From IMG/VR virus record IMGVR_UViG_3300020731_000015, positions 1-64,000 of that record: a stretch of 64,000 bases of DNA; one strand, 5' to 3'. This DNA is from a virus. A model generated the notes under the pieces. It saw only the letters and a list, made by a program, of their open reading frames with translations, was not told the DNA's origin and made no database searches. Below are positions 35,017 through 57,256 of this stretch, in pieces. Position 1 is the stretch's first letter. Every line of letters begins with the position of its first letter. The position numbers and the translations under genes are program-made.

Positions 35017-35076
35017 ACAGAGATTTGGAAAGAGTGGGGTAAAGTAATGAACGAACTAACCACAAGGGAGTCGGCC

Positions 35077-36951: not shown

Positions 36952-37027
36952 TCCCCCTATCTACGACTAGGGTTTTCCAAAGTAGGGGATAGTATCTACC
37001 CAGAAACTTCCCCACTTGGAGGCCGCC

Positions 37028-39343: not shown

Positions 39344-40487
39344 TGACTTCTTTGCTGAAATAGAGGCGTGGGTTCGTATTGCTAAGGCAAAGCCCGACTA
39401 CACCGAGTTGATTTCAGACCGCAAAGGCGAGCCTGACAACCAGAAGTTATACGACCAAGTAAAGGCCGATGCCCAGAAGAAGTTTGATGTCTATCCATCA
39501 GCAGTGGCAAACGGCTGGGTCGTTCAGGAATACAAGCGTCGTGGCGGAACATACTCCAAGCCAGTAGCCAAAGGCGACTTACCGGGTCACGAGTTTCGAG
39601 GAAACCAATATGCGTCGGCTGGCGGAACGGCACAAATCACTAGCGAATCACAGACCGCACCACTAAACGCTGCTAGTGCTGCGAAAGACCTCGCTACTAA
39701 GGCAAACGACCTTTACGAGAAGAACCAGATTGACAAGTTCGACAAGACTATGCCCGCTAGTGTCGCTTCCAAGATTGGAAAAGACCATTGGGATATGGCT
39801 ATCGAACACCAAAAAGAAGCAGAGCGTTTGTCAAACGAAGACGAGACTCACCTCAACTCTGAAATCGGTCACGCCGACGCTTCTGATGAGCACTACAACG
39901 CCGCTAAACGGTGGGGCGTAGTTGCCGATATGCTGAATGGCACATACGGCCCAAGTCAACTCAATGTTGATAGCGCTATCGCTGCGGCCAAAGAAGCATC
40001 TGGCTCTGCTACTGATGCCTCTTCTAACATTATCCCAGAAGCGGCTCACGAAGACACTATTGCTCAAAACGGCGGTCCAAATGTCGCTAAGCCACTATAC
40101 GGTTTTAGTGTCAAAAACGCAGGAAACATCAAGAGCGATGTCGAGGCGAGTTATATCGCTTCTGCCCTCCACGAACACCTAGTAATAGGTGCTGGACACC
40201 CAGACGACACAGAAGTTCGCACCCCAGCGGATTACAAAGTGGGTGCGAGTCAGCACTATCAGTTGGCCCAGTATTACGCAGGGAAAGCACAAAGCGGCCC
40301 ACAGAAAGCCGAATACCAAAAGGCTGCTGATGCTCACATTGCTGCGTATAAAGCCTGTGAAAAAGCGGCTAGTGCTGGAACGAAAGAGCCATCAAAGGCA
40401 AGCGTGGCTGCCGTTGCTGACACAGCGAGGGTTGCCGATAGGGCATCGTTTAATCTGGGCGAAACCTATATGAACAATAGAAAGTAA
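39336..40487 (+). CDS. Helical tag protein
   Basis: 383 aa. Start fixed by similarity with its neighbour (MANDFFAEIEAWVRIAKA versus MARDFFAEVESWIRVAKG). A short charged insert (about 20-80) precedes the tag KGDLPGHEFRGNQYA; AQITSESQT follows, then Ala-rich helices with HYNAA and SQHYQLAQYYAGKAQ repeats. 8-bp overlap with the previous gene. Function unknown. Confidence 0.8.
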   Translation: MANDFFAEIEAWVRIAKAKPDYTELISDRKGEPDNQKLYDQVKADAQKKFDVYPSAVANGWVVQEYKRRGGTYSKPVAKGDLPGHEFRGNQYASAGGTAQITSESQTAPLNAASAAKDLATKANDLYEKNQIDKFDKTMPASVASKIGKDHWDMAIEHQKEAERLSNEDETHLNSEIGHADASDEHYNAAKRWGVVADMLNGTYGPSQLNVDSAIAAAKEASGSATDASSNIIPEAAHEDTIAQNGGPNVAKPLYGFSVKNAGNIKSDVEASYIASALHEHLVIGAGHPDDTEVRTPADYKVGASQHYQLAQYYAGKAQSGPQKAEYQKAADAHIAAYKACEKAASAGTKEPSKASVAAVADTARVADRASFNLGETYMNNRK

Positions 40488-40491
40488 AACA

Positions 40492-41841
40492 ATGGCTAGG
40501 GATTTCTTTGCTGAAGTAGAATCGTGGATTCGTGTTGCCAAGGGCGATGTGGTTGGCCACGAGTTTCACGGGAACCAGTATCAGTCGGCTAGCGAAACGA
40601 CACAAATCACTAGTGAATCGCAGACTAGCCCCGCTAGCCGTGCTTCGGAAATCGCTGCTAGGGCTAACGCACTAGTTGATGGTATCTGGCACGACCCGGG
40701 TTCACCAGTATTACGAGATGAACACTCTGAAATAGCAGATGAACACTTTGCGGAAGCCAATAGAGTTCGTTCTACCAACCCAGCGTTGGCTGACGCCCAC
40801 GTAGAGGCCGGCAACGCTCACGAGGATGCCCACAACGCTCACTCAATGGCACACACTTACATTAGTGATGAGAACGATGACCGTGCTGAAGCCGCAACTA
40901 GTAGGGCTATTCGGGCTAGTAGGAATGTCGAAGCACTAGCCAACGGAACTGCCACCGCCCCAAGTGCTACTCCAACACCTACCCCAAACCCCAATAAGTT
41001 CTCGCACCCTTATCAGACTCAATACAGCGCGCCAAACTACCTAGCGCAAGCGGCCAAGAATGTTGCTGATAGGCATCTAGATGTTGCGGTCGCTGGCGAT
41101 AAGCCAGAAGACCTAAACGCCCTTGCTGACGAGCACCAAAAAATTGCCGAGGGTCTTCGTGATGTCGCTGACCAGAAAGCGATTGCTGCTAGAACTGCCC
41201 AGACACAGGCGGCATCATTGGGCCGCCAAGACCCTGATGAGGGTGAGAAACTCGGAACCGGGCGTGAAGCAACGGAACGACCAGCCAACGTGACTGCTGA
41301 ATCATTAGCCGACAAGTATTCCCCAGCAGGCGCATCGAACTCGGATGCGAACCGTAATCGGATTGCCGGTATGACTTCTAGCCGTTTGGAAGACCTAAAG
41401 TTGGCCTCAAACTCGATGTCCAAACTTGCTGATATGAGTCACGGCTACGCATCTAGCCGAGTTCGTGGCGAATTGGGAAGTATCCGAGAGGCTATCCAAA
41501 GCCGAATCACAGACCTCAAGAACGAGGCAAAGGCCGGTGGCTCTAAGTTCGTTCAGGGTCAAGGAAACCAGCCAACTCGCACTTCTGCTGATTACAAGAA
41601 CCTGATTTCCAAACTAACTAGTGCTTCTAAGTCCGTTTCTGAACTACGCAACGCTATTCGTAGCACGAATCTCCAAAGCACGAACCACTACTACCACTCT
41701 GGTCAATTTGCCAAAGATGCCCCAGCCGTAGCCGATAAGGTGGCGGACGCTACACAGGCCTACAACGATTTCTATCGTGGAACTGATGGCAAGGATACGG
41801 GCTACTTCGCAAATGACCGATTTAAGAAGTCGGTTGGCTGA
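40492..41841 (+). CDS. Helical tag protein
   Basis: 449 aa. MARDFFAEVESWIRVAKG runs directly into tag KGDVVGHEFHGNQYQ, then the TQITSESQTSP linker and Ala/His-rich helices (VEAGNAHEDAHNAHSMAHT), a Pro/Thr linker near 165 and a second helical half. This is the simplest form of the helix-tag-linker-domain layout. Function unknown. Confidence 0.82.
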   Translation: MARDFFAEVESWIRVAKGDVVGHEFHGNQYQSASETTQITSESQTSPASRASEIAARANALVDGIWHDPGSPVLRDEHSEIADEHFAEANRVRSTNPALADAHVEAGNAHEDAHNAHSMAHTYISDENDDRAEAATSRAIRASRNVEALANGTATAPSATPTPTPNPNKFSHPYQTQYSAPNYLAQAAKNVADRHLDVAVAGDKPEDLNALADEHQKIAEGLRDVADQKAIAARTAQTQAASLGRQDPDEGEKLGTGREATERPANVTAESLADKYSPAGASNSDANRNRIAGMTSSRLEDLKLASNSMSKLADMSHGYASSRVRGELGSIREAIQSRITDLKNEAKAGGSKFVQGQGNQPTRTSADYKNLISKLTSASKSVSELRNAIRSTNLQSTNHYYHSGQFAKDAPAVADKVADATQAYNDFYRGTDGKDTGYFANDRFKKSVG

Positions 41842-41871
41842 AAAATCACAACCCTGTGAAAGAATAGAACT

Positions 41872-43092
41872 ATGGAAAACTTTGCTGCTGAAATCGAATC
41901 TTGGGTCCGAATCGCTAAGGGCGGGCCGGGCTCGGGAGATACCCCCGGTCACGAGTTCAATGGAAACCAATACACCGACGCGAGTGGTGCTATCGCGGGC
42001 ATTTCCAAACTTCGTGGGCTTTCAGGAGAACTCAAGTCAATAGTTGATGAACTAAATGGCAAGTTTTACCCACAGGGATTTACGCTGCGAGCCAAACCAG
42101 CAGATAAGTACGACAAAGACAGAATGTATGGGGAAAACTCATATAGTTCTTTTGCGCGCTATGTCACCCCAGAGAAACTAAAAGAAACACAGAGCAAACT
42201 TGAGGGGTTGGCCGACCAAGTGGATTCTCTAGTTGCTGGAGTTCGCCGTTCAGCAGCCGTTCACTCGGACACATCACCCACGATAGACAAGTTTGGTGGA
42301 GGCGAGTGGAAACTCGGACAAGACGAAGTTGGTAAGCACTTTTTAGAAGCCTCTAAGTCGCTTGAGGCTTTATCAGACAACTTGCGTGGTGCGGCATCCA
42401 TAATGAGCCACTCGGCAAACAAGGCGGTTTCAGTCAAATCACCTCGCCCAATGGCGGATGATGGCTATCCTGCTTTCGGCTCTTCCGAACCAAAAGCCTT
42501 TGACGCCGTTAAAGGCGAGGATGTTCTATCAACGAAGTTGGCGATTTCACGCTATTCGGGTCACGAAAGCAGTTTGGGAGAACAAGTTGATGCGATTTCC
42601 AAACTCTTTGACAAGTCGGAACTATCGCTTTCTCGTGCGGCTATCGCTATAGCGAAAGACCCCTCAAAAGAACCTAACGAGGCAAAGGCCGCTTCTGATT
42701 CAGCCAAGTTCGAGTCGAAGTCAAAGGAGTACACTGCTTCTGCTGATGCTATGGAAAAAGACATTGAGGCTAAGTACGATATGGTCAAAAAAGACTATGA
42801 CCTCGATGAAGACGGTAGGCCTATTCGTTATGGCCCCCAACACTCGGAAGAACTAGATGAATACGAAGAGGCAAAAGACAAGCAAGATGTCGTTCTCTCA
42901 CGCGCCAAAGTAGCGGCGGTATCGGCTAGTAATGCCTACTCTGTAATGGCTCACTTTGCTTCGCAGCGTGGCGACACCGAAGCCGCCAAGCAAGCGCAAG
43001 AAAAAGCCAGCGAAATGCTGAAAGTGGCGCGCTATAGCGAATCTCGCTGGCCAGATGCGGTCAATCATTACGATGACTACGATGGCGAATAA
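41872..43092 (+). CDS. Helical tag protein
   Basis: 406 aa. MENFAAEIESWVRIAKGG then GDTPGHEFNGNQYT, with Asn in place of His/Arg. Long helices follow with few sequence repeats. AAGAAT ends 6 bp before the ATG and no clear Shine-Dalgarno is seen. Function unknown. Confidence 0.8.
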   Translation: MENFAAEIESWVRIAKGGPGSGDTPGHEFNGNQYTDASGAIAGISKLRGLSGELKSIVDELNGKFYPQGFTLRAKPADKYDKDRMYGENSYSSFARYVTPEKLKETQSKLEGLADQVDSLVAGVRRSAAVHSDTSPTIDKFGGGEWKLGQDEVGKHFLEASKSLEALSDNLRGAASIMSHSANKAVSVKSPRPMADDGYPAFGSSEPKAFDAVKGEDVLSTKLAISRYSGHESSLGEQVDAISKLFDKSELSLSRAAIAIAKDPSKEPNEAKAASDSAKFESKSKEYTASADAMEKDIEAKYDMVKKDYDLDEDGRPIRYGPQHSEELDEYEEAKDKQDVVLSRAKVAAVSASNAYSVMAHFASQRGDTEAAKQAQEKASEMLKVARYSESRWPDAVNHYDDYDGE

Positions 43093-43098
43093 CAACAA

Positions 43099-45396
43099 AT
43101 GTCATCTATCCAAGATGTCCGAAAGTTCCTTGTTAGAGAACGGTTTGTGGTCCTCAAGGGCGACTATGTTGGCCACCCCTTTCGTGGAAACCAATACTCC
43201 GACTTAGGCTCTGCTGAACACCTACAAGAAGCGAATAGAGCCGCTAGAGAAACGGATTCGCTCAAAAGAGAGGGCCGTCGTAGGTATGGTCGTTCTCACG
43301 GATATTCCCTTGATGGCGACCTAGCAAAAGCATCGCTCGATGCCCTTGACCACGCGGCATCAGCAAAAGCCAAAGTAGGCGTTCTTAAAACAACAATATC
43401 TGAACTAGAAGAAAAGATTAAGAGAAACGGTGGCGACCCCAAAACTCCGATAGACGGATTCCACGACTCCGTTGAGGTGCGACAACTCAAAGACAACTTA
43501 CAGCGTTCCCAAGAACAGTTAAGCCATATAACTAGCGGGAATATGAAGTTTCGTATTTCTTGGAACAAATCACTAACTAGCGAGCAAATGAGCAAGCAGG
43601 CCGCATCCGCGCTGAATCGTGGATACAAGGAAGTTCTCAACAAATTATCTTCGATGCCCGGCGTGACTATGCCGAAAGCCAAGTCGCTTCTTGACAACAA
43701 GAACAACCCTCGCCCAGAGGCTCTAAAGGTTCTTCAGAACGATGTCAAGCAGATAGACTCAATCGCCAAGAAAGATGCCAAAACAGCGCAAGACGAAAGT
43801 GCGAGCCCAGAAGATAGGTATAACGCAACTGTCGGCTTGCGAAACTCATCGAAGAACGCCCTCTCTGCCCACACCTTTCTTGAGCAAGTCTATCGGATTA
43901 GTGGAGACACTACTAACCAAGATGCTGAAGCAAAAATCGTTGAGAAAGCAAAAGCGTCTATTGGGAAAGCGGACGAACATTACACAAATAATTTCGCTCA
44001 AATAACACTTTCATACGCCAAAGAGAGCATCGATAAGGCTAGTAAGACGATTGACCTAAGTGGAGTCAACCTATTCAGCATCAGCCCGGAACAGAAACAA
44101 ACGATTTCCGATGCAAAAAGTCTTTACTCGAACGCCTACAGAATACTTAGTGATGCCAGACTAGGCAATACTGATGAGGCTAGGTTGGCAAGAGACAATT
44201 CTCAACAAGCAAACGCACTCCTAAATACCGCTAGGTCTAACGAACTAAAAGCAACCCTAGACGGGTCAATGAAGAACATAGGTAAGGCAACTGCTGATAA
44301 GAGCGCCTATGAGAACACCCAAAAGGCCGAGCGCGATTATCGCACTTTCCAATCGGCGGTTGGCGAGGCTAAGTCGAATTGGAACGGCCTATTATCTAAC
44401 TACGGTGGTGCTTCATCACCAGAGTTAAATGCAAAAGCACAGAGCAACGCTATCGGATTAGCGAACCAACTAGAACTCGTACAAAAGACCGCTGGTTTGG
44501 CTATCGGTAAGGAATACCTAAAAACGGCTAGTGACTCCCTAAAGTTCGTTCGTGAAAACCTCGGAAACACAGACCCAGCCGTGGCGGAAAAGGCCGACAA
44601 ACTTATTACCGAAGCATCAAGTGCAGCCAATACAGCAAGAGGGCTATTCTCAAAAGAATCTCGCTACTATTCATCAAGCGCACCAGCGACAAGTGGTTTG
44701 GAAAACGAGTGGAATCAGGCATCTAGGTTTGAGAAAGAATGCACCGCCTACTCCAATGCTGTTCGTGGAACATCTCTTTTGGAAAAAGGTCTAGCGGAAA
44801 CAAGGAGTATGCCCGAAAAGGTGGATATGAGTGACATCGGCCAAGATGACCCCAATAGTTATGTATCCCTAAAGGCTAAAGCCGCGGGAACTTTGGATGA
44901 CTCGTTCGGCTACCTAACGCGCGGAGTTGAAGCAATCGACAAATCAGACCTTTTCAGCAAAGACGAAAAACAAGAACTTATTGGCAAACTTAAGGACCAA
45001 GCCACCCAAGCGGGTAAGGAACTTGCCGATATCAACTTTAAGTTCTATAGAGATGGTCTTGACTCTATGGTTGTCAACGGTAGTAAGGAATTGGAAAAAT
45101 CCAAAGACACCGATGACGATAACCCTATGTATGCCTCTACTAAGGCAGAAAAACTATTGGTGCAGGCTACCTATCTTGCTGATTCTATAGAAAACAGTAT
45201 CGCTCACAAGGAACTTAGTGGTTCGCTACTAGTTGGTCACTTCCAAGACAAGACCCCGCTACAACTCAATTCCGAGCAAGTAAAGCAACTCAAGGAAACC
45301 CTCGCCAAGCATAGTGTTGCTGAAATCCAGCAAAAAGCCGATGAAGCGAAGCAGGGCCAGCGCGCTTTCTATCGCCTACGCCAATACGCCCTGTAA
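43099..45396 (+). CDS. Large coiled-coil tag protein
   Basis: 765 aa. Short N-terminus VRKFLVRERFVVLKGD, then tag GHPFRGNQYSD near residue 30. The rest is almost all alpha-helical and rich in Ala, Lys, Ser and Glu, with no hydrophobic membrane segment. It lacks the AQITS linker of its neighbours. Could be an internal head or tape-measure-like protein; the tag favours the former group. Confidence 0.8.
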   Translation: MSSIQDVRKFLVRERFVVLKGDYVGHPFRGNQYSDLGSAEHLQEANRAARETDSLKREGRRRYGRSHGYSLDGDLAKASLDALDHAASAKAKVGVLKTTISELEEKIKRNGGDPKTPIDGFHDSVEVRQLKDNLQRSQEQLSHITSGNMKFRISWNKSLTSEQMSKQAASALNRGYKEVLNKLSSMPGVTMPKAKSLLDNKNNPRPEALKVLQNDVKQIDSIAKKDAKTAQDESASPEDRYNATVGLRNSSKNALSAHTFLEQVYRISGDTTNQDAEAKIVEKAKASIGKADEHYTNNFAQITLSYAKESIDKASKTIDLSGVNLFSISPEQKQTISDAKSLYSNAYRILSDARLGNTDEARLARDNSQQANALLNTARSNELKATLDGSMKNIGKATADKSAYENTQKAERDYRTFQSAVGEAKSNWNGLLSNYGGASSPELNAKAQSNAIGLANQLELVQKTAGLAIGKEYLKTASDSLKFVRENLGNTDPAVAEKADKLITEASSAANTARGLFSKESRYYSSSAPATSGLENEWNQASRFEKECTAYSNAVRGTSLLEKGLAETRSMPEKVDMSDIGQDDPNSYVSLKAKAAGTLDDSFGYLTRGVEAIDKSDLFSKDEKQELIGKLKDQATQAGKELADINFKFYRDGLDSMVVNGSKELEKSKDTDDDNPMYASTKAEKLLVQATYLADSIENSIAHKELSGSLLVGHFQDKTPLQLNSEQVKQLKETLAKHSVAEIQQKADEAKQGQRAFYRLRQYAL

Positions 45397-45444
45397 TTTA
45401 TCAACTGTGGTCTATTATCTATAACGAACGCAAGGGAGTTGCCT

Positions 45445-46866
45445 ATGTCTGATGAAATCCTCAACGCCGCATCCGAATGGATTGGCTCTGTGAACAAGGG
45501 TCTTTACGGCGCACTCTTTAACGAGTCGCTCACCTTTGGTCAGGACAATGCCGCTAAGGCCGAGTCACTCTACGCAGTTGCCCTCACTGCTGAAATGGCT
45601 GGCGACAAGGCTAAGGCGACTAACGCCCTTATGACTGCTTCGCAACTCCACCTCACTTCTGCCGACTACTACTTACGCGCCTCTTCTTACGGAACGATTG
45701 AGCGCACCCAACTACTCGCCCTCTCACAAGAACAAAATGCACTCGCACAAAAGGCGATTGAGGCCGTTCATCTTCTTGAGAACACTCCTGCTGAATCAAC
45801 TACCGATGCTGGTCTTGATGGCGTGACCGTTGATGAGGCCGACACTTACCCTATTGATACTGCGAACAACCTAGATGCCCGTGACCACGCACCCGACCTG
45901 CCAGATATGTATAAGTCAGTTGGCGGGTTTGCTGAAATCGCAGAAGACGGCGTAGAGGTTTGGAACTTCGACATCGCAAAGGGTGACACACCCGGCCACG
46001 AGTTCCGTGGAAATCAATACACCGAGGGAACTGGAAAACTATCTGGCCGTGCTGATGATGTTGCCGATAGAGCAAATGACGAGGGTGCTAGCAAGTCAAT
46101 CGCTGCGGAACACAAGAGCATCGCTGAAGGACACAAGAGTATCGCTATGGAACTCGCTGACCAAGCAGCCGAAATGCCACTAACGCAAGCGGAAAAACCA
46201 CTTGTGGCAAAAGCCGCTATTGACAACTTCAAGGCTTTTATTGCTCACGCTAACGCCGCAGACGCACACGAAGAAGCGGCAAAAGCACTTGCGAACGACC
46301 CACACTCGGAGAGTGCGCTAGATGCTGAGGAAGCAGCACAGCGCACTAGCGATGATGCCGCAACTGCGAGCGCCGAGGCTCACGGGGGAACCTCGATTGC
46401 GGCCAATGCTGAAAAGGTTGCCCCAACAAGCACTAGTGGCACGACTACCCAAATCACTAGCGAGGCTCGTAGCAACCCCTCAAGCGTTAAGTACATCAAG
46501 CCAGTCAACCTTACGGCCGCTAACACCTTGCGTGAAAGGGCCGCAAGTCTCGCTTTGGAAACAGGGCGCACCGTGCCAAACCAAGCCTTCGTGCAAGAAC
46601 ACACTCAAATCGCTAAGGAACACACGAAACTTGCAAAGGCAAATGACAAGGCTGGAAATAGCGATATTGCCGAGGCCCACCGAGATGCCGCTCACGCACA
46701 CGAGGTTGCCGCTGCTTTTACTAAGGATGCTATTGGGGTTTCACCAGACGGAACCGACCAAAAGGCTATTGATGCCGAGCAGAAGAGCCAAGAGGCCTTT
46801 ACCGCTAGTGGTGAGGCCGCTCGTCTTGAGAGAGCCAATATTTTCCCCGACACTAGTTCTTACTGA
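45445..46866 (+). CDS. Helical tag protein with internal tag
   Basis: 473 aa; the ATG lies 6 bp after AAGGGAG, and the TTG at 45439 is not preferred. An N-terminal TPR-like helical domain (about 1-115) is followed by an acidic linker, tag KGDTPGHEFRGNQYT near residue 178, and Ala/His-rich helices (AAEHKSIAEGHKSIAMELAD) with the TQITSEARSNP linker. Here the tag joins two domains rather than being N-terminal. Confidence 0.8.
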   Translation: MSDEILNAASEWIGSVNKGLYGALFNESLTFGQDNAAKAESLYAVALTAEMAGDKAKATNALMTASQLHLTSADYYLRASSYGTIERTQLLALSQEQNALAQKAIEAVHLLENTPAESTTDAGLDGVTVDEADTYPIDTANNLDARDHAPDLPDMYKSVGGFAEIAEDGVEVWNFDIAKGDTPGHEFRGNQYTEGTGKLSGRADDVADRANDEGASKSIAAEHKSIAEGHKSIAMELADQAAEMPLTQAEKPLVAKAAIDNFKAFIAHANAADAHEEAAKALANDPHSESALDAEEAAQRTSDDAATASAEAHGGTSIAANAEKVAPTSTSGTTTQITSEARSNPSSVKYIKPVNLTAANTLRERAASLALETGRTVPNQAFVQEHTQIAKEHTKLAKANDKAGNSDIAEAHRDAAHAHEVAAAFTKDAIGVSPDGTDQKAIDAEQKSQEAFTASGEAARLERANIFPDTSSY

Positions 46867-46879
46867 TACTAGAAAATCC

Positions 46880-47092
46880 GTGCGAAACCCCTTTGAGATA
46901 GAGGAACTCCTAAAATCCCCGCTTTACAAGCAGGTAGTTGACGGAGTGGTGAAACAGCCTCGCTATGTGCCTTTGGCCGAGCAACGCAAACACCCACAGG
47001 ATTTCGGCTGGCTAGATGATGCCGTGCCAGATAACTATGTATTCCCAGAGGAAGACTCCGAAGACCCTATGGGCGAATCACCTCTAGGGTAG
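46880..47092 (+). CDS. Hypothetical small acidic protein
   Basis: 70 aa from GTG (VRNPFEIEELLKSPLYKQV...), ends with acidic PEEDSEDPMGESPLG. The much longer frame from 46322 is a shadow of the preceding gene. No tag. Function unknown. Confidence 0.65.
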   Translation: MRNPFEIEELLKSPLYKQVVDGVVKQPRYVPLAEQRKHPQDFGWLDDAVPDNYVFPEEDSEDPMGESPLG

Positions 47093-47156
47093 GTAAGCAA
47101 TAGCGATTTGGAAATCGTAGTGTAGCCTTTCTCGTAGAGCGAAAGGAACTCCTTTT

Positions 47157-49148
47157 ATGAATATTGGCGACCGATTCAAGCCGGTTTACACCCCACGCAA
47201 CCAAGCATCTATTGATGCCGAGATTGCCAGCAAGCAGATTGCTAAGACTGCTCGTAGTGAGGTTGAGGCTATGTCAGCACTAGACAACGCTAACTTCCGT
47301 CTTCGTAAGGCTACAGAGTCTTTGAGCGAAGCACAGGTGGCTTACTTTGCCGCCGTTGAGAAGTCAGCAAGCAACGCTACTGAACTCCGTGCTGCCTACA
47401 ACAACGCACTTGCCGGATTCCGTGACAGCGAGAAAATCGCCGCTGTCGCTGCTGATGAGGTTCGCAAGGCTAAGGCCGCTCTCGCAGGTCTTCGCAAGAA
47501 GGCTTCTATGGAAGATGACTATGAGGATGACTCATCAGACGATGACTCATCAGAGTACGATGAGGATGAGAAGAAGAAGTCTTTTGGTGGCTCTAGCGAC
47601 CAAGAAGATGCTGCTGATGCTATGGCTGGCGATGACCCAGAGGGCGCAGTAAAGGTTCTTGACTCACTTGCCGACACCCACGAGCGCCTCGCAGGTATGG
47701 CTCGTAAGACTGGCAATATGGATGCTCACTCGGCTCACGCTGCTGAAGCCGGTCGCATTCGCTCAAAGATTGTTTCTCTTCGTGGCAAGGCCAACAACAA
47801 GGAAGTTGTAAAGTCTGCTTCAGATTTCATCACTAAGCGTGAGTTCTCTGACACCAAGCGCGCTCAACTCGCTGATTTGCTTGAAGACTGGAAAGTTTCT
47901 AAGGCTGCAATGTTGATTGTTTGCCCATCTTGTATGGGTGACGGTGGCTCGTGCTGTGAAAACGGAATGATTAGCCCCGATGACCTTTCAGACCACGTTC
48001 AGTTGGCAGACGAGATGCCAGTTGCTATGAGTGCTTTCAGCACCTCTTCGCTTCTGACCCGTGACTTCCAAAAGTCGGCCGCTTACCAAGAGTATGTCTT
48101 GGCTAAGGGTGATGTTGATGGTCACGAGTTCCACGGAAACCAGTACACCGCAGGTGGTGGCGGAAAGACTGCTCAAGTCGCTAGCAACTCGCAGACCGCA
48201 CCAAAGACCGATGCCGAGCGTTTGGGTAATGTCCCGGGCGCTAGCAAGGCACTACTCACTCAAGATGCGATAGACAAGTTCCAAAGTGGCAAGATTGACC
48301 ACAAGGCTTTGGCAAATGCTCACGATGCTCTTGCTGCTGCCCACCTTTCTGCCGCTAAAGAGGCACGGCTAGTTGGTGACAAGAAAGGTATCGCCCTCCA
48401 CATCGCCGCCGCCAACGCTCACCTTTCTGCCGCTACTGCCCACCTAACTGCAGACGGAGAGGGCTACGAGCCCTATGTTGACAAAAACGGTAATGAGGTC
48501 AAGACCGAGGGTATGTCATACGGCGAACTAGCCAACTTGCCAACCGCTTCAGACCGACTTTCAGCAAACGCCGCTGATGCTTCTAAGGCCGCAGACAAGC
48601 ACGATGTAGAGATGGAGCAGGAAACCGCTCAAATCACTAGCGAAGCCCGCACCGTTCCAATCAAGCCCGGCCAAGCCGCACAGACCCGTGACCCCAACTG
48701 GAACCCACGCACTAGTGGCGCGTTGATAAATATGCCAAAGGCGGGAACCCAAAAGGGTTTTAACACCATCGTTGGTGGCTACGAAAAGAACATTCCAGTT
48801 CAACTTGGACTCGCTAAGCAAGCAGAGGAAGAATCAAAGAAAGCCGTTGCTGATGGCGACCTTGAGACTGCCACTGCGAAGATGGAAGAGGCTGTGAAGG
48901 CTTATGAGGCCGCCGCCGGAAACGCTCGTGGAATCTTTATGATGCACGAGAAGTTCCAAGGTCAGGTCAAGCAGGCAAACCCTGAAGACCCAAAGGTAGC
49001 CGCTTTCCGTGAACAGGCTCGTTCTATTCGTGCTAACGAAAAGGCTTCGGCACAGGAAAAGGCTGCTGAACTTGGAAAGAAGTTTAAGGAACAAGAGGCC
49101 GCCAAAATCGCCGCTGCTAAGGATGCCCAGAAAATCGTAGGCGAGTAA
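47157..49148 (+). CDS. Tag protein with Cys cluster and coiled coils
   Basis: 663 aa behind GAAAGGAACTCC. N-terminal coiled coil (1-125), acidic Asp/Ser stretch near 125-140, a helical domain, a zinc-finger-like CPSCMGDGGSCCENG near 260, then tag KGDVDGHEFHGNQYT near 318, AQVASNSQTAP and AQITSEARTVP linkers and Ala-rich helices. The Cys cluster recalls DnaJ-type CxxCxGxG repeats but is only half of one. Function unknown. Confidence 0.8.
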   Translation: MNIGDRFKPVYTPRNQASIDAEIASKQIAKTARSEVEAMSALDNANFRLRKATESLSEAQVAYFAAVEKSASNATELRAAYNNALAGFRDSEKIAAVAADEVRKAKAALAGLRKKASMEDDYEDDSSDDDSSEYDEDEKKKSFGGSSDQEDAADAMAGDDPEGAVKVLDSLADTHERLAGMARKTGNMDAHSAHAAEAGRIRSKIVSLRGKANNKEVVKSASDFITKREFSDTKRAQLADLLEDWKVSKAAMLIVCPSCMGDGGSCCENGMISPDDLSDHVQLADEMPVAMSAFSTSSLLTRDFQKSAAYQEYVLAKGDVDGHEFHGNQYTAGGGGKTAQVASNSQTAPKTDAERLGNVPGASKALLTQDAIDKFQSGKIDHKALANAHDALAAAHLSAAKEARLVGDKKGIALHIAAANAHLSAATAHLTADGEGYEPYVDKNGNEVKTEGMSYGELANLPTASDRLSANAADASKAADKHDVEMEQETAQITSEARTVPIKPGQAAQTRDPNWNPRTSGALINMPKAGTQKGFNTIVGGYEKNIPVQLGLAKQAEEESKKAVADGDLETATAKMEEAVKAYEAAAGNARGIFMMHEKFQGQVKQANPEDPKVAAFREQARSIRANEKASAQEKAAELGKKFKEQEAAKIAAAKDAQKIVGE

Positions 49149-49174
49149 GAGCCTTAGTGTTCTAAGGTTTACTC

Positions 49175-51460
49175 GTGAACTACAAAGATATTCTCTCTAT
49201 CCTTAAGGCTGGCGTTGCTGGTCAATCTGGTGATAAAGACGGTCACGACTTTCGTGGCAATCAATGGACTGTTATGGGCCCTTGGGGTCAACCAGTTCCA
49301 CGACCCCGTGACCCAGCGACTAACAAGCCCCTAAAGGGCGCAGCGTTGGCTGCTGAATTGGCACGACTCTATCCGAGCCCGAACACGCCTATTCCAAACG
49401 CCCCTAAAACGACTGCCAAACCAGCCCCACCAAAGGTATCTGGCTCGACCCCTAAATCACCAAAAGCCCCCAAAGCACCAAAGGCTACGCCAGCACTCGC
49501 ACCAACCCCTACACCGGTCGCTACAACCCCTACAACGCCCCCTAAGCCCGTTGATGAAGCACCAAAGGCCGAAGCCCCAAAGGTAGAGGAAGTCAAGCCA
49601 GAAGAGCCTAAAAAGGTCGAGGATAACCGAGTTATCACGGAAGAGGGTCAGAAGTCTATTCAGGAACGAATTGCCGATGCTGAAAAGTGGGAACCCAAAA
49701 CTGATTTGGAAAAGCGGGCTTCCGAAGCCGCCTCGAAAATCGCCGCCGCAATCCTCGTTCCAAAAGAACGCCGACCCCTATTCGTAAAGAATCTCACTAC
49801 GGTTCTCACCCAGCCAAAGGCTTTTAGAGATGCCGTTGCACAAGCCAAAACCGTAGAAGTCAACGACCGTGTTAGAGACAACGCAGCGATGCTGAAAATG
49901 ATTGGCTTTACGGGTCTTCCAAAGGTCGTATCGGAAGCAGAGTTTAAGGCCACACCCGGCAAGGTCGCCTACTCTGGTCTTTCGTACACTCGGAGTTCTA
50001 CCCAAACACTTCAGCAGAAGTTAGCGACGCTTTACAACGGGGAGTTCCCACGCTACGGCGGTCCTATGTTCGGTGCGGCGTTCTACACATCCGAGAGCAA
50101 AGATGTGCCGGTTTCATACGCCCAAAAGAATGGGGCTAGTGGAACAAATACCTGTATCTTTCGCAACAAGTTAGTTGACCCCAACAATGTCTATAACGCA
50201 TCTGGCAACGGCCCAATGATTAAATTGGATGTCTTATCAGCAACGGCTAGGGAAGACCACGGCAAGTATTCGGCTATGGACCACCCTGACTACAATCTCC
50301 GAGAAATTATGTCGGATGCTGGATACACCGATGACGAAATCAACCGAATTGATGGCAAGGGAAGCCAGCAAGGTATCTTTAGTGGAGACAACAACTGTAA
50401 GAGTATCGGCCCAGCCCTAGCGGGATACGATGCGCTGAAAGATACCCACCACAACTACACAATGGTTCTAAATCGTGGGGCTATGGTCCTACCTGACACC
50501 TACGCAACCAATATCCAACATCAAGGTTCGTTTGGGCCAGAGGGAGCAGCAAATGTGTCTGACAATGTTCCTGTGGATTCGGCTTACGCAATCTCCGTGC
50601 CTACGCCAAAAGCACCCGAAGATGATGAGCAAGATGTCGCTAAAGGTGAATCTGACGGACACCCTTATCGTGGCAACCAATATGGGCCGGGCAAGAGTGA
50701 TGGCACTCCTGAAAAGCCAAAGCCACTACCCGGGTCTGAAGAAGAAACGGAAGAAGTAGTAAAGAAACTCACCGAGGATATGAAGTTGCCTCCTGCTGTT
50801 ATCCGTATGGGTATCCAAGTAGCCCGACCACTTCTCGCAGAAGCCGCTAAATACGAACCGGCTATCACCAAAGCGATTTCTCAATCCGTAAAAGAGAGTG
50901 GCGGAACTCGAAAGCGCGCTCAATCTGCCGTAAAGTCACTCTCTAGTGCTACCGAAAAGGCGGTTAGGGATACCGCCGATTCTGTCCAAAAGGGCTTGAC
51001 TGCTGAAATCACATCTAACTCCCTTTCCAAAGAAGCCGGAGAAATCCACGACCTCGTTCGCTATACGGTTATCTGGCCACAAAAGGAAATAGCAAGCGGC
51101 GCGAACAAGATGATACAGAGCCTCGCCAATAAGGGCTTCGTTCCATACAAAGACGAGAACGGCACGGAGATGGTGAAAAACTACTTCCACGATAGGCCGG
51201 GAAACTCATACCGAGGCATCAATGCCAACTTCGTTGACCCCAAGAGTGGAATGGTCTTTGAGGTTCAGTTCCACACACTCCAAAGCCTTGATACTGCTGA
51301 AAAGATGCACAAAATATATGACAGTATTCGCAAACTAGATAAGACCGACCCAGTTTACGAAAAGGGGCAGGAAAAGATGCGAGCGGGCTTCGCACAGGTA
51401 AAAATCCCACCGGGAATTGACTCGGTTGGAAATGTCTGGTTCAAGAAGGCTATAATTTAG
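49175..51460 (+). CDS. Tag protein with ART-like and RelA/SpoT-like domains
   Basis: 761 aa from GTG. Tag QSGDKDGHDFRGNQWT near residue 17, then a Pro/Ala/Lys-rich linker (50-155). Residues about 240-440 form an ADP-ribosyltransferase-like domain (VAYSGLSYTRSS; FGAAFYTSESKDVPVSYAQ). A second tag KGESDGHPYRGNQYG lies near 490. The C-terminal domain has DLVRYTVIW (about 626), NSYRGINANF (about 679) and EVQFHT (696), the pattern of RelA/SpoT-type pyrophosphokinases (YRG, E-x-Q). It might make alarmones or pyrophosphorylate tRNA in the host; activity is not shown. Confidence 0.78.
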   Translation: MNYKDILSILKAGVAGQSGDKDGHDFRGNQWTVMGPWGQPVPRPRDPATNKPLKGAALAAELARLYPSPNTPIPNAPKTTAKPAPPKVSGSTPKSPKAPKAPKATPALAPTPTPVATTPTTPPKPVDEAPKAEAPKVEEVKPEEPKKVEDNRVITEEGQKSIQERIADAEKWEPKTDLEKRASEAASKIAAAILVPKERRPLFVKNLTTVLTQPKAFRDAVAQAKTVEVNDRVRDNAAMLKMIGFTGLPKVVSEAEFKATPGKVAYSGLSYTRSSTQTLQQKLATLYNGEFPRYGGPMFGAAFYTSESKDVPVSYAQKNGASGTNTCIFRNKLVDPNNVYNASGNGPMIKLDVLSATAREDHGKYSAMDHPDYNLREIMSDAGYTDDEINRIDGKGSQQGIFSGDNNCKSIGPALAGYDALKDTHHNYTMVLNRGAMVLPDTYATNIQHQGSFGPEGAANVSDNVPVDSAYAISVPTPKAPEDDEQDVAKGESDGHPYRGNQYGPGKSDGTPEKPKPLPGSEEETEEVVKKLTEDMKLPPAVIRMGIQVARPLLAEAAKYEPAITKAISQSVKESGGTRKRAQSAVKSLSSATEKAVRDTADSVQKGLTAEITSNSLSKEAGEIHDLVRYTVIWPQKEIASGANKMIQSLANKGFVPYKDENGTEMVKNYFHDRPGNSYRGINANFVDPKSGMVFEVQFHTLQSLDTAEKMHKIYDSIRKLDKTDPVYEKGQEKMRAGFAQVKIPPGIDSVGNVWFKKAII

Positions 51461-51462
51461 GT
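51451..51462 (+). promoter_or_regulatory. -10 element of a leaderless start
   Basis: Consensus TATAAT at 51451-51456 inside the end of the preceding gene, 6 bp before the ATG at 51463. A TTGGAA 19 bp upstream is the only -35 candidate. Confidence 0.55.
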
Positions 51463-51678
51463 ATGGATTGGATTTACTACGAACGCCGATACAAAGACGG
51501 CTCTTTGGCCGCTGGGTATCGCTATGACAACGAGCATCGTGGTGAAATCCTTACGGCTAACGGCTGGCAACACTCCGACAACTTCTTCCACAAACTAATC
51601 ACGGGCGACAACGCCCTACGCCAATTAGAGGGAATCCCCGGTTGGGCCTATAACGAACAGGGAAACTTGATTCAGTAG
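51463..51678 (+). CDS. Hypothetical protein
   Basis: 71 aa (MDWIYYERRYKDGSLAAGYR...), aromatic and without tag. Probably leaderless. It breaks the run of tag genes. Function unknown. Confidence 0.7.
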   Translation: MDWIYYERRYKDGSLAAGYRYDNEHRGEILTANGWQHSDNFFHKLITGDNALRQLEGIPGWAYNEQGNLIQ

Positions 51679-51716
51679 GGTAAAGTATCGGGAATCCTAG
51701 TTTGGAAAGGCCCGTT

Positions 51717-52604
51717 ATGACTTCGGACATCAATGCTGAAATCTTGGCGTGGGTCCGACTAGCAAAGGCTGGCGATACCAAAGGTCACGCTTTTCACGGC
51801 AATCAGTATCAAGAGGGCGAGAGTGGTGGCGAAGCCCCAGCCCGACAGGTAGATTCGAGTCGCTATCAGGCAAATGGTCGCTACGGAACTGCTGAAACCA
51901 CCGAATCAATCAAGCCGACAGTTGCCGAAAAGCCAAAGCCCGCCGAACTTCCAAACCACGACACCCGCATAAAGAGCGACCCAGCCGATACCTCTCCAAA
52001 AGGCATAAAGAATTGGGCTCGAGAAATCCACTTCGCGCTCACTCGTGGCGAGCAACCCATTATCTCCGCCCAGCACTTCCCCGCCTTGATTGCTGAAATG
52101 GCCCGAACGAACTCAAAGGGCAACGACATAACCAACATCCGTATTGACGGAACTCGCCTTATGGGATTAGACGGAAAGGGCTACTCTCGCAGCAAAATGC
52201 CCCAAATTGACGAGAGCGAACGCCCCCAATTCCTAAAGGATATTGAGAAGTCAGACGGAATCACCGTAAAGCCAATGTCCGTTGACCCCACGACCCTAAA
52301 GCCAATCCAAAAGGAAATCAACGGCGACAAGTCTGGGGCGATTATGAAGAAGAACCCAGATGGTATTCCCGACAATATGCGAATCTTGGTTTCCAAAGAT
52401 GGTTATGTAGTGGATGGACACCACACTTGGGCCGCTGCCGTTGCGCTGAAATTGGCAGGAAAGTCGGCTCAATTCCCGGTCTATCAACTCTCCTGTGACT
52501 GGAAGAAAGCGATGGATGTCGGCCTCGCTTGGGATAAGGAACACAATGTTCCCCTACAAGGATTTGATACCAAGCCACCGGTTTTATCAAAATCCGTGAA
52601 ATAA
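51717..52604 (+). CDS. Tag protein with ParB-like domain
   Basis: 295 aa from the ATG behind GGAAAGG. Helix DINAEILAWVRLAKA, tag GDTKGHAFHGNQYQ, a Pro/Lys linker (40-90), then a domain with LKPIQKEING and ILVSKDGYVVDGHHTWAAAV. LxPxQ...I and VDGHHxWxAA resemble ParB/sulfiredoxin-like folds, some of which bind CTP or phosphorylate or cut. A paralogous domain is in 53009-57256 (residues about 735-915). Activity unknown. Confidence 0.75.
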   Translation: MTSDINAEILAWVRLAKAGDTKGHAFHGNQYQEGESGGEAPARQVDSSRYQANGRYGTAETTESIKPTVAEKPKPAELPNHDTRIKSDPADTSPKGIKNWAREIHFALTRGEQPIISAQHFPALIAEMARTNSKGNDITNIRIDGTRLMGLDGKGYSRSKMPQIDESERPQFLKDIEKSDGITVKPMSVDPTTLKPIQKEINGDKSGAIMKKNPDGIPDNMRILVSKDGYVVDGHHTWAAAVALKLAGKSAQFPVYQLSCDWKKAMDVGLAWDKEHNVPLQGFDTKPPVLSKSVK

Positions 52605-52611
52605 TAGGATT

Positions 52612-53019
52612 ATGACGAACGCATCAGATTTCAGCAGAGGCAATTTGCTTGGCCCAGATGGGGTTTATCGTGAGTTCATCAAGGGTGATTTCTCTGGCCA
52701 CGTCTTTCGTGGCAACCAGCACTCGGTCGGTGGCGTAGGTCACTTCGACCCTTGGCGCGCAACCCTAATGACTATCTGTGCTTCGGGCCACCAGAACACC
52801 ATCGGCGTTCCCCCAACTTGGATTGAGCGTGATGCTCAAGGTAAGCCAACTGGTCAGTTCACGGCGGGAACCCAGAGCCGTATGTGCGCTACTTGTTCCA
52901 AACCTCTACCTAACCGTTGGAAGTTGATAAACGGACAGAAGTTTATTCAGCCCGACAAGCAACCCGTGACGAGCGCAAACCAATGGCTTTACGGTGGAGT
53001 AAAGAACTATGTCAAGTAG
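52612..53019 (+). CDS. Small tag protein with Cys pairs
   Basis: 135 aa. Tag KGDFSGHVFRGNQHS near residues 24-38; later ICASGHQN and MCATCSKP could bind zinc. 11-bp overlap with the next gene. TAATAG lies 4 bp before the ATG. Function unknown. Confidence 0.75.
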   Translation: MTNASDFSRGNLLGPDGVYREFIKGDFSGHVFRGNQHSVGGVGHFDPWRATLMTICASGHQNTIGVPPTWIERDAQGKPTGQFTAGTQSRMCATCSKPLPNRWKLINGQKFIQPDKQPVTSANQWLYGGVKNYVK

Positions 53020-56000
53020 TTTGGAAAAGCAAGTCTTCCAGCCGAACTTCGTAAAGTTCACCAACACGGAAATCGTTGACCGCAACCCTATTTCTGGCAC
53101 GACTTTCTTTGGAAACCAGAACAACGGCTTCCAACTCGTTAAGTTTGCTGATGGCTCTAACGGAGTTGAGAAGCGACTCAAGCATTGGGTCGGGAACAAG
53201 ACTGGTCGCCTCTATCGTGGCGAACTTCTCGGTGCGCAGGAATACCTAGCGGCTCGTGTGGGCGAAGTAATGAACGCCCCTATCCGTGACTGCCACTTCA
53301 CTAGCAAAGACGCACAGAGTATCGTTATGCCGTTTATTGATGGGCGCTCTGGTGCTGAAATGAACGATAAGGATATCCCCGACACTCCACAAGGAGTAGC
53401 CCTACGACTATTTGACTACCTAGTAGCCAACGCAGACCGACGCCCCAAGAATATTATGTTTGCTGATAACGGAAACATAGTGGGTATTGACCACGCCCTT
53501 TGTAATTTCCGGCCTCGTGAGCCTAAGCCAGAGTTGATTACTATCCTTTGGAACGGCGGAGTCACCCTAAGTAGTTTGGAAATCCTAAAGCCAAAACTGC
53601 TTGCTCTCGGTGGTTTGTTTTCCCAAATGGGTATGACAGAAAAGTTTGGAAACCTAATCGGCAACCTCGACCGATTGATTGCGGCTTTCACCAAAATCCA
53701 AAATATCGCGGTGGCTAAGGCCGCCTTTGACTCACAGACCCCACCACAAGCCGTTCAACAAGCAGCGAAACAGGCTTTGGAGTGGATAGCAGACGGCAAG
53801 GCTGGTAGGAACTTTACCTCGGTAGGTCGTAAAAGGGCTTCAGACCTCGCTCACGGACACCCAGTATCCCTAGAAACCCTAAAGCGTATGAAAGCCTACT
53901 TTGATAGGCACGGCGTTGATAAGCAGACCCCACATTGGAACGAGCCAAGCCCCGGCAAGGTGGCGTGGTATGCGTGGGGTGGAGATGCTGGCTACTCGTG
54001 GGCTAAGAAGATGGTCGCTCGTGCTGAAAAGGCCGCAGAAGCGGTCCGTAAAGATGCCGACACCGATAGGAAAAAAGCGGACGCGAAACTAAAGGAAGCA
54101 GAAGCACTAGCGGCAGAAGCCTTTGATTTTCGCCGTAGGGAACACTTTGAGTCGGCCGCCAACGCTCACGCCAATGCCTCACGCTTATTCTTTGAGGCTT
54201 CCAAACTCTACGGAAATGACGAGAATGGTGATGCCGTAAGCGCACTCGCTAGGGGAAACTCGGAGAAAGACCTAGCCGAATCCGCCCGATTTACAGACCA
54301 GATGGGCGAACAACACAGTCCTGCTGAAATCCACGATGGAACTTGGGTGGATGGGGGTGCTTGGGCTGGCGGAACCGACCCGGTGGAAAAGGGAGATGTC
54401 GTAGGACACGAGTTCCACGGGAATCAATGGACCGGAGATGAATACGACTTCAATAAGGATTCTTACGACCACAATGCTTGGGGTTCGCCACTCAAGTATG
54501 ACTCTTGGACAGGGGCAACGACCGAAGACAAGTCAGAAAAAGTTGGTGATTATGTCTTTAATTCTAGGTTGCCTAGTAGCGAATACATCGCTTATATGAA
54601 GTCGCACTTTTCATACAACAACATACCAACGCCAGACAAACTAACCACTAACTGGAAAGATGAAATGGCGAAAGCACGGAGTAAGTATGTCGTTAGTGAT
54701 GTATGGGCTACGAAAATAAACGACAAATTGCGAAAAGACAAAGCACTTAGCCCCAAGCAACAAACGGAGTTTGAGGCCGTAAAGAAATGGGCCGAGTCAG
54801 AAACGATTATCAAACCGGTATCGCTATACCGAGTGTCTATCTTGCCTGATGCTGTTTTGGACAAACTGCAGCCCGGAACTTCCTACTTGGAAAAAGGATT
54901 CCAATCCACTTCCATATCACCATCAGATATGATTAATTACGGAGTATCCCGAAGATTGGGTGGGGATACCCATACGGCTATTAGCGGCAATAGGGTTTAT
55001 TTTAGGCTCAACGCACCAAAGGGAACGAAAGCCGTTGACGCTTACTCGGAAGAAGTGGTATTGCCACCCAACACGCAAGTTTCAGTCACTAGCCGAGCAA
55101 CCGACAAGATGGGTAATACCTACATCACGGCAGATATCAATAATAGCACGGAAGTCAAAAAGGGCGACTCGCCCGGTCACGAGTTTCACGGCAATCAGTA
55201 CGAGGCAGGTATCGTTTCCAAACTAGATGCTGGCGAGAGCCCCGAAATCGCTTCTGCTGATTTGCCCGGTCTGGTTTCTGGCATCCACGACTTAGGTTCT
55301 CGTGGTCACGGATACGACATTACGAACCTAAAAGTTGATGGAGAAAAGCCTTTCCAAACTGACCACGATGCTGATTTGCTTCGTGAGCATATGCCCCAAA
55401 TACTCCCAAGCCAACGAGCAGAGTTCCTCAAGGATATTCAGAGCGAATACGGAATTGTAAGCAAGGCAGAAGAGGTCAACCCCAAAACCCTAAAGCCCTC
55501 ACAAACAGAGATTGATGGTTGGAAGACGGGTGGCGTTTATAAGGAGTTTGCTGAAAAGGGCATACCCGCCGAGCGCGCTCCACTCGTTTCTAGCGACAAC
55601 TACATTATTGACGGACACCACTATTGGTCGGCGGCAATCGCCCTAAAAGCCGCAAACCCCGACTACAAACTCCCTATTCGCCGTTTATCCTGCGACCTAG
55701 ACACGGCACTAAAGGTTGCTAACCAATGGCACGACAAGGTTGGCAACCCACGCCTATCGCTGGGCGATACCCAAGTTTCCAAATCAGGAGTAGCCGGACA
55801 ATCTGGTGATAAAGAGGGCCACGCCTTTAGAGGCAACCAATGGTGGATGATGGGGCCAGACGGAGTTCCAGTTCCACGCCCTCGAGCACCTAAAACCGAT
55901 ACGGGAGACAAGACACCAGCGGCCCCTAAAGCCCCAAGGGTATCAACCCCACGCGCTCCAAAAGCCACGCCAACTGCTGAAACGCCTAAGCCTATCTACC

Positions 56001-57256
56001 AAGAAGACCTCAAAGTTCCATACGGCAAGGGAGTTATTCCGCCGGGCTGGAAGAAAACTGGCACGACTTCGGTAGTTATCCCGTCTAGAGATTGGAGTAA
56101 GCCGCCGAAGATAGTTAATTGCACAACCTTTTCTTCAGCAAAGGGCAACACCGCTATTATCGGCACAAGAGCGCGTGGGTGGAAGATAGGCGACCGATAC
56201 ACCAATACCGTCTTGATGACGATTGACAGATTTGCTACGGGAAAGCAAGTTGAGTTTGTTCACACTCTAAGACAAGGCGCGAACACCCTTGCTTCTGTCT
56301 CTTTGGGAAATCCAAACTCCCTAATGATTGGCCGCTATGGAATTATTGGTAGAGACTTAAAGGCGGGCATAGAAAAGTATCGCCCCAACTACCAAACAGA
56401 TGATACGACACCAGAGGCAATCAAGGCTCAAGCCGATTGGGATTCCCTAAAGGATACGGCAGTCGCACAGGCAAAGGGTGAAATCAACACCCAAGAGGGT
56501 CGTGATGCTTTGGATAAGGTCGAGGCAACGCTTCAGGCTACTGATAATTCCAATTTGGCTAAGGGCTTTACGATTGACAAGTTGGGCCGAACTTGGAACA
56601 CGGGCGACCTATTTATGTCCTCCCAACGCCGTATTGAGTCAACGATTATCCACGAACTAGGCCACTCCAACTTCTTTAGTGATGGCAAAAAAATAACCGA
56701 TGTAATCCCAGAACTCCAAAAGTCTTTGGGTAGCAAAGTAGACCTTTCTAAAGAAAACGAGAGCGGCAAAAGGGGTTTCGTAAGAAACATCAAGACCCCC
56801 GCCCTCAATTTCGGTGGAAAGACAATAGTTCCTAGAGGTGAAGTTAAAGACTTTCTAGATAAACACGAGCCCGGCATCTACCCTCTCTCGTTGGATACAA
56901 CGAAAGCCCTCAAAGCGATTGGTGGAACCAAATACGGAACGAGCAGTCTCCAAGAGTTAGGTGCTGAATCGTTCGCCCAATTCCAACTAGGGATAACCCA
57001 ATCGCCCATAACCCAAGCCTTTGCTACCTCTCTCGGCTGGCAACAGGCTGGAACTACGGTAGCCAAGTCTGGTAGCGTTGCTGATATGAGTCAATCCCAA
57101 TCCCCCAATGTTTACTACTCGCCAGAGTTCGGTGGGGAAGTCGCACGGGTATTCCTAGAGGATTCCCTTGATGGCCCACGCCTTGTGGTTGGTGATTCGG
57201 TGGAAAACTACGGCCACCCAGACCAGACTGACGACTCGACTGAAGACGAGGAATAA
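53009..57256 (+). CDS. Giant tag protein: kinase-like, ART, ParB-like, zincin
   Basis: 1415 aa. Residues 10-250: PI3K/HipA-like kinase fold with NADRRPKNIMF (141-151) and VGIDHALCNF (158-167), the catalytic and metal loops. About 265-345: a DLAHGHPVSLETLKRM ... AWGGDAGYSWA module known from other phage head-region proteins. Tag 1 at 461; an ART-like domain about 475-715 (LYRVSIL, FQSTSIS, AYSEEVVLP; the residue two before the catalytic Glu is Ser, not Glu/Gln). Tag 2 at 718; ParB-like domain to about 915 (IDGHHYWSAAI). Tag 3 near 930; a Pro-rich linker, then a metalloprotease-like IIHELGHSNFF (H1215, E1216, H1219). A hairpin terminator follows, though it lacks a plus-strand T-run. Confidence 0.8.
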   Translation: MSSSLEKQVFQPNFVKFTNTEIVDRNPISGTTFFGNQNNGFQLVKFADGSNGVEKRLKHWVGNKTGRLYRGELLGAQEYLAARVGEVMNAPIRDCHFTSKDAQSIVMPFIDGRSGAEMNDKDIPDTPQGVALRLFDYLVANADRRPKNIMFADNGNIVGIDHALCNFRPREPKPELITILWNGGVTLSSLEILKPKLLALGGLFSQMGMTEKFGNLIGNLDRLIAAFTKIQNIAVAKAAFDSQTPPQAVQQAAKQALEWIADGKAGRNFTSVGRKRASDLAHGHPVSLETLKRMKAYFDRHGVDKQTPHWNEPSPGKVAWYAWGGDAGYSWAKKMVARAEKAAEAVRKDADTDRKKADAKLKEAEALAAEAFDFRRREHFESAANAHANASRLFFEASKLYGNDENGDAVSALARGNSEKDLAESARFTDQMGEQHSPAEIHDGTWVDGGAWAGGTDPVEKGDVVGHEFHGNQWTGDEYDFNKDSYDHNAWGSPLKYDSWTGATTEDKSEKVGDYVFNSRLPSSEYIAYMKSHFSYNNIPTPDKLTTNWKDEMAKARSKYVVSDVWATKINDKLRKDKALSPKQQTEFEAVKKWAESETIIKPVSLYRVSILPDAVLDKLQPGTSYLEKGFQSTSISPSDMINYGVSRRLGGDTHTAISGNRVYFRLNAPKGTKAVDAYSEEVVLPPNTQVSVTSRATDKMGNTYITADINNSTEVKKGDSPGHEFHGNQYEAGIVSKLDAGESPEIASADLPGLVSGIHDLGSRGHGYDITNLKVDGEKPFQTDHDADLLREHMPQILPSQRAEFLKDIQSEYGIVSKAEEVNPKTLKPSQTEIDGWKTGGVYKEFAEKGIPAERAPLVSSDNYIIDGHHYWSAAIALKAANPDYKLPIRRLSCDLDTALKVANQWHDKVGNPRLSLGDTQVSKSGVAGQSGDKEGHAFRGNQWWMMGPDGVPVPRPRAPKTDTGDKTPAAPKAPRVSTPRAPKATPTAETPKPIYQEDLKVPYGKGVIPPGWKKTGTTSVVIPSRDWSKPPKIVNCTTFSSAKGNTAIIGTRARGWKIGDRYTNTVLMTIDRFATGKQVEFVHTLRQGANTLASVSLGNPNSLMIGRYGIIGRDLKAGIEKYRPNYQTDDTTPEAIKAQADWDSLKDTAVAQAKGEINTQEGRDALDKVEATLQATDNSNLAKGFTIDKLGRTWNTGDLFMSSQRRIESTIIHELGHSNFFSDGKKITDVIPELQKSLGSKVDLSKENESGKRGFVRNIKTPALNFGGKTIVPRGEVKDFLDKHEPGIYPLSLDTTKALKAIGGTKYGTSSLQELGAESFAQFQLGITQSPITQAFATSLGWQQAGTTVAKSGSVADMSQSQSPNVYYSPEFGGEVARVFLEDSLDGPRLVVGDSVENYGHPDQTDDSTEDEE

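Follow-up and report, generated by a model that had tools for sequence, protein, structure and literature searches.

RelA/SpoT-type synthetase domains have been described in MuF fusions, in phage polyvalent proteins and in the effector XopAD (PMC3482391, PMC5512222, PMC5576092, PMC12226406, PMC12691689), and toxins packaged in phage heads have so far been recognised chiefly by their MuF domain. The exported alarmone synthetase of Streptomyces albidoflavus (SaEAS, PDB 8vx3) is a Sec-exported, stand-alone enzyme that produces (p)ppApp as well as (p)ppGpp; it binds ATP through R124, K154, N169, E182 and Q184, and its D121A variant is inactive (PMC12691689). The Apk2 proteins are MuF-adenosine 3'-pyrophosphokinase polymorphic toxins of temperate phages, and RYT, GxN and YH are marks of such pyrophosphokinases; toxicity to E. 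coli is known for the Apk2 domains from Mannheimia and Pasteurella phages, of which the Mannheimia one yields only (p)ppApp (PMC12226406). Phage polyvalent proteins carry several effector domains (ART, RelA/SpoT, PBECR, ParB-like) and are head-delivered (PMC5512222), while XopAD/Skwp is a bacterial type III effector directed at plants, with a homologous RelA/SpoT-type C-terminal domain (PMC3482391). Here we describe a 761-residue protein encoded in IMG/VR virus record IMGVR_UViG_3300020731_000015, of which bases 1-64000 out of 75,270 form the window. This protein carries a synthetase of the SaEAS/Apk type behind a recurrent peptide tag, GHx[FY]xGNQ. It is probably a head-packaged, tag-joined effector cassette, in which the pyrophosphokinase would be an interchangeable module and the tag a probable head-loading or docking signal.

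Structure prediction confirmed the C-terminal ~215 residues as a small alarmone synthetase (SAS, or SYNTH) domain. The AlphaFold2 model, built from an alignment with 31 viral relatives (pLDDT 93.2, pTM 0.89), has the SYNTH fold of RelA/SpoT homologues, and its top solved match is SaEAS (Foldseek E 2e-12; VIA Z 21.4 over 201 residues at 3.1 A). Further VIA Z scores were 12.8 for RelQ, 12.4 for RelP, 12.1 for Tas1/Apk1, 11.7 for CapRel and 7.1 for FaRel2. The domain matched SaEAS by phmmer (E = 4e-11) and, by tblastn, the Apk2-type MuF minor head proteins of Streptococcus and Pasteurellaceae phages (E down to 3e-12), and a search of PDB sequences with the family profile returned SaEAS (E 2e-43) and Tas1 (E 5e-6) and no others. 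The synthetase residues are also covered by phrog_7625, annotated as 'head morphogenesis' (E = 1e-14), and by the NCBIfam profile of the XopAD C-terminus (E = 3e-23). A PADLOC run gave no match. Armadillo-repeat matches in the phmmer search were discarded as repeat artefacts (per-stretch E > 80 where printed).

The active site closely follows that of SaEAS. D626, R629, N683, E696 and Q698 are equivalent to D121, R124, N169, E182 and Q184 and are invariant in the 31 viral homologues, whereas K668 is kept in 25 of these and is paired with K154 by equal spacing to the next Tyr, the gapped HMMER alignment placing K668 two residues off. The motifs RYT, GIN and FH form the same set as in SaEAS, and Apk2 has YH instead of FH. 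Because this set equals that of the dual-product SaEAS, synthesis of (p)ppApp, or of (p)ppApp and (p)ppGpp together, is predicted, and fits the signature better than ppGpp alone; exchange of RYT/GxN/YH-type motifs in Apk2 left the specificity of that enzyme unconverted (PMC12226406). An earlier note on this DNA had recognised a RelA/SpoT-like synthetase from three motifs in the order of (p)ppGpp synthetases. These, DLVRYTVIW (residues 626-634), NSYRGINANF (677-686) and EVQFHT (696-701), do lie in one frame within the C-terminal domain, and the assignment is borne out by the predicted fold, which resembles RelQ, RelP and CapRel and comes closest to SaEAS. The note had named lost catalytic residues or an unlike fold as outcomes that would speak against it; the Asp, Arg, Lys, Asn, Glu and Gln positions are all kept and the fold is as expected.

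The open reading frame (ORF) runs, in order, from the N-terminus through a first tag, a Pro/Lys-rich linker, an ART-like module and a second tag to the SAS domain (Table 1). The identity of the ART-like module is weakly indicated and unproven. Its AlphaFold2 model, from an eight-sequence alignment, has a pLDDT of 75, and the top VIA rows are nearly all ART-superfamily chains with Z of 6.2 or less, under the stand-alone trust level; Foldseek gave no match with this model, and no H-Y-E or R-S-E catalytic triad was clearly identifiable in the eight-sequence alignment. With several effector domains encoded among head genes the protein fits the description of a polyvalent protein, less firmly for the unproven ART-like part, and differs from the published ones in that its modules are split by one recurrent peptide, of which we found no mention in PMC5512222. 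It resembles Apk2 in its place in the head region, its C-terminal synthetase (about 30% identity) and its RYT/GxN motifs, but it is a tag-joined multi-module carrier with no Phage_Mu_F match up to E 1, and the possibly incomplete record gave no match to an HD-type immunity hydrolase; the missing MuF places the protein outside the definition of an Apk2 toxin. SaEAS shares the fold and the DxxRYT, K, GxN and ExQFHT site, but the phage domain is a module of a head-region protein and has lost the G-loop Arg, and XopAD/Skwp has another carrier and another delivery route. Judged from these comparisons, the synthetase is of a type already known as an antibacterial toxin, and the tag-joined carrier without MuF is what differs.

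Full GHx[FY]xGNQ tags occur 19 times on the + strand of the record and not at all on the - strand, and the reversed control pattern had no site. All 19 are confined to two blocks, the longer of which is directly preceded by genes for the portal protein and an XkdF-like prohead protease, and further on, record position 64834 has the probable gene of the major capsid protein (333 aa, judged by inspection of sequence only). This gene context makes it plausible that the protein reaches the host early in infection. The earlier note had placed synthetase, tag and ART-like domain together at 50640-51460, next to head genes. The tag is a genuine repeat and the head-gene neighbourhood holds; the span contains the second tag and the synthetase, while the weakly indicated ART-like module lies upstream of it.

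Similar tags were found in many other phages. In IMG/VR, at least 119 viral-contig stretches were matched by a DNA pattern of the tag in which 16 bases were fixed and 5 half-fixed. The consensus from 266 unique contexts is KGDxxGH[PE]F[HR]GNQ[YW]T, after which the sequence is rich in Gly, and a single ORF has up to seven tags. In the window the silent codon positions of the tags vary while the residues are fixed, and selection therefore acts on the peptide. The long parts upstream of the first tag fall into 59 clusters, with matches to portal families (6 + 4 + 2 members), MuF (4), prohead-protease families (about 7) and DarA_N (1), counts in which a single member may match more than one family. 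Parts downstream of tags match ART-PolyVal, ADPrib_exo_Tox, Zeta toxin, PBECR1/3, Acb1, 2H, NUDIX, Top1B and GNAT. Three Akkermansiaceae contigs (L221, L223 and L225) encode a Mu-like portal, then the tag, then a C-terminal part of PBECR-like appearance.

The association of synthetase and head protein is also seen among 31 full-length viral SAS ORFs, where MuF is present in 14, minor capsid 2 in two and XkdF in one. Loci selected by the tag only (L015, L076/L093 and L077) hold synthetase domains behind it, at 8-47 aa from the GHxFxGNQ tag when the window is included. The window shares the order of ART-like module, tag and synthetase with L077 and L076/L093, despite an identity of just 32-36% between its synthetase and theirs. 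In other loci different short peptides occupy the place ahead of the synthetase, namely HDQxxHG in L014, L152, L157 and L166, HDxxGRF in L161 and GNYDHAGRPGQVGGS in L135. Such Gly/His/Gln-rich peptides (HDQxxHG, HDxxGRF, HAGRPGxVGGS) stand just ahead of the synthetases in L135:6792-8621, L014, L110, L152, L157, L161 and L166, and L110 has three HDQxxHG copies in a single ORF.

Modules are gained and lost at the tags. L127 (contig 3300006119_000056), ~99% identical to the window over this region, is without the ART module at 54427-55174, in frame and with the junction inside a tag, and has a second module replaced from the tag at 45994 onward. The two also differ, at a third place, where another recurrent motif (about QITSExxxxP) stands. 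When all tagged loci are taken together, 16 of the 31 homology breakpoints are no more than 30 nt away from a tag, against 14.6% under the null (binomial p 1.4e-6 if the breakpoints are independent, which they are not fully, many coming from relatives of the window). QITSExxxxP-like motifs stand near tags at 39585-39700, 40555-40670, 46420-46480 and 48610-48660 of the window and bound two further module differences relative to L127. Another close relative, L104 (about 98%), is apparently without the module between tags 880 and 2077 (window 910-2059).

We propose that the C-terminal domain, whose active site looks intact, would most likely use ATP to pyrophosphorylate adenine nucleotides, and perhaps guanine nucleotides too, at the 3' position, and that in the host cytoplasm it would drain ATP and produce toxic (p)ppApp/(p)ppGpp. 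The synthetase would ride as a swappable module on a polyvalent virion-head protein whose tags mark the module joints. Tagged proteins would most likely become part of the prohead and later leave the head together with the DNA, the partner modules hitting other targets alongside the synthetase. As a head-loading or docking signal, the tag could be functionally like the capsid targeting sequence of T4, a short peptide on head-packaged proteins (PMC5694885), and it possibly doubles as a processing point for the XkdF-like protease. The T4 sequence is an N-terminal propeptide of 10-20 residues that is cut off, whereas the tag is mostly internal and repeated and does not have this propeptide form.

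Other readings of the tag were considered. It could be a recognition or cleavage site of the XkdF-like prohead protease that frees separate effectors inside the prohead, without docking. The protease gene lies directly upstream of the tagged ORFs, the tags sit between domains, and polyvalent proteins are thought to require processing into units (PMC5512222); the at least eight conserved residues, however, exceed the ~3 residues that are reported as the site of the SPN3US/T4-type protease (e.g. AVE, ALE), and tags occur near N-termini and at six C-termini as well. We regard cleavage alone as rather unlikely, and favour docking because the tag is long, is present on portal and protease proteins and is occasionally protein-terminal. 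That the tag is a mere flexible linker or recombination point maintained by module shuffling, with no packaging role, agrees with the clustering of breakpoints at tags, but appears improbable in view of the fixed residues amid varying silent positions and of the occurrence of the tag in phages of many kinds, where the head proteins attached to it belong to three unrelated classes. A protein acting late in the producing cell, for example through host arrest or exclusion of other phages, would not be injected, and packaging is here inferred rather than experimental; the position of the gene between the portal/protease and capsid genes makes this highly unlikely, as do the head proteins to which this tag and this SAS family are fused. 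Several points weigh against the head-packaged cassette itself. The genome search matched the Pfam RelA_SpoT profile (PF04607) at E = 4.8e-5 and 19.5 bits, under its 27-bit cut-off, and the G-loop Arg is replaced. N-terminal and rare extreme C-terminal tags make a single function for all of them uncertain, and the breakpoints are partly dependent, as stated. The loci were selected via the tag and are mostly metagenomic contigs, so that the head association is supported by fusions rather than by an unbiased census. The 75-kb, possibly incomplete record yielded no immunity gene, HD and HD_4 hydrolases being without a match.

As to the enzyme, the earlier note had allowed for alarmone synthesis or modification of tRNA 3' ends. 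A toxSAS of the FaRel2/CapRel type would pyrophosphorylate the tRNA CCA end and halt translation without making free alarmones, and the fold is common to CapRel and FaRel2. This part of the proposal now seems quite improbable: SaEAS and Tas1 alone match the family profile by sequence, the Z score to SaEAS is far above those to CapRel and FaRel2, and RYT/GxN/FH is typical of free-nucleotide (p)ppApp or dual synthetases, the nearest solved and characterised relatives making free (p)ppApp and/or (p)ppGpp. Alternatively, the domain may have lost or changed its activity and have a binding or structural role within the head protein. Within the G-loop (RxKxxxS), K587 and S591 are present but Arg585, an Arg in 27 of the 31 homologues, is Ala, and L093 is likewise without this Arg. 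In the alignment this Arg is missing from the active enzyme Tas1 too, the remaining catalytic residues are kept, and the synthetase domain shows 10 silent against 5 replacement codon changes relative to L127; loss or change of function is in our judgement very improbable. These estimates are not exclusive, since the rival readings of the tag and those of the enzyme may hold together.

If the head-packaged cassette is correct, alarmone synthetases would travel in phage proteins without MuF. A tag that serves as a loading or release signal would give a sequence handle for head-delivered effectors in many uncultured phages, suggest a role for many orphan modules and allow chosen proteins to be loaded into phage heads. 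A wider reading, which we hold tentatively and put a little short of an even chance, is that GHxFxGNQ and its analogues HDQxxHG, HDxxGRF and GNxxHAGRPGxVGGS of other phages form a general encapsidation or processing code outside MuF, by which almost any effector, once attached to portal, MuF or protease proteins, would be carried in the head and shuffled by recombination at the tag.

Table 1. Features of the 761-residue protein and its surroundings (window positions)
Feature	Position	Strand	Evidence or remark
Candidate polyvalent head-cargo protein, 761 aa	49175..51460	+	GTG start; family matches
Tag copy 1, GHDFRGNQ, within SGDKDGHDFRGNQW	49241..49264	+	
ART-like module, unproven, residues 150-480	about 49622..50614	+	AlphaFold2, VIA rows
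Tag copy 2, GHPYRGNQ, within KGESDGHPYRGNQY	50657..50680	+	directly ahead of synthetase
SAS (SYNTH) domain, residues 540-756	50792..51442	+	profile, sequence, structure matches
G-loop AVKSLSSATEK, residues 585-595	50927..50959	+	RxK Arg replaced by Ala, Lys and Ser kept
DLVRYT	51050..51067	+	catalytic D626 and R629
K668-N669	51176..51181	+	matching K154 of SaEAS by spacing
YRGIN	51209..51223	+	adenosine-type GxN, N683
EVQFHT	51260..51277	+	E696, Q698, H700
Portal protein (Portal_Mu)	33299..34912	+	PF06074 E 8e-35, phrog_113 E 8e-87
Protein with C-terminal XkdF-like prohead protease domain	35047..36951	+	PF14550 32.5 bits, above cut-off
Run of tagged ORFs	37016..57256	+	14/19 full tags, counting ORF 49175-51460; others in 1-3574
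Second block of tagged ORFs	1..3574	+	partial tag at 1; tags at 880, 2077, 2710, 3134
Neighbouring tagged polyprotein, 1415 aa	53009..57256	+	PI3/4-kinase-like, phrog_2859, ART, HExxH-containing modules
ART module (ADPrib_exo_Tox)	54427..55174	+	between tags 54404 and 55175

Short-tag tblastn against phage genomes gave nothing, yet so short a match can hardly reach the E limit, and the KGD-prefixed tag had no match in genome contigs. The looser GD form matched 23 stretches in genome contigs, of which the context marks about 7 as real (Akkermansiaceae, Burkholderiales), the others being chance-like. Among cultured bacteria, Ideonella livida TBM-1 and Hydromonas duriensis DSM 102852 carry the tag, presumably in prophages. 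Akkermansia phage Chantilly has a related portal and no tag within the 9-kb stretch read, no isolated phage was matched by tblastn with the long tagged polyprotein of L066, and a search for a virion proteome from an isolated tagged phage found none. A published description of the tag was not found in a search that reached few subscription journals or preprints.

Most modules of the neighbouring 1415-aa polyprotein are separated by tags, and its phrog_2859 stretch is also matched at the major capsid genes of Roseobacter and Synechococcus phages. Several tagged modules consist of His-rich helical repeats of the HxxLAxxHxxAA type (window 45439-49148, L210, L212, L222 and L226, including Burkholderiales contigs); these are possibly head-internal filler or DNA-binding proteins. 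In addition, a long run of overlapping Arg/Lys-rich ORFs was observed at L003:6349-10335 (about 70.3-74.3 kb of the record), which resembles a wrong-frame reading of a collagen-like Gly-X-Y gene and probably corresponds to a tail fibre.
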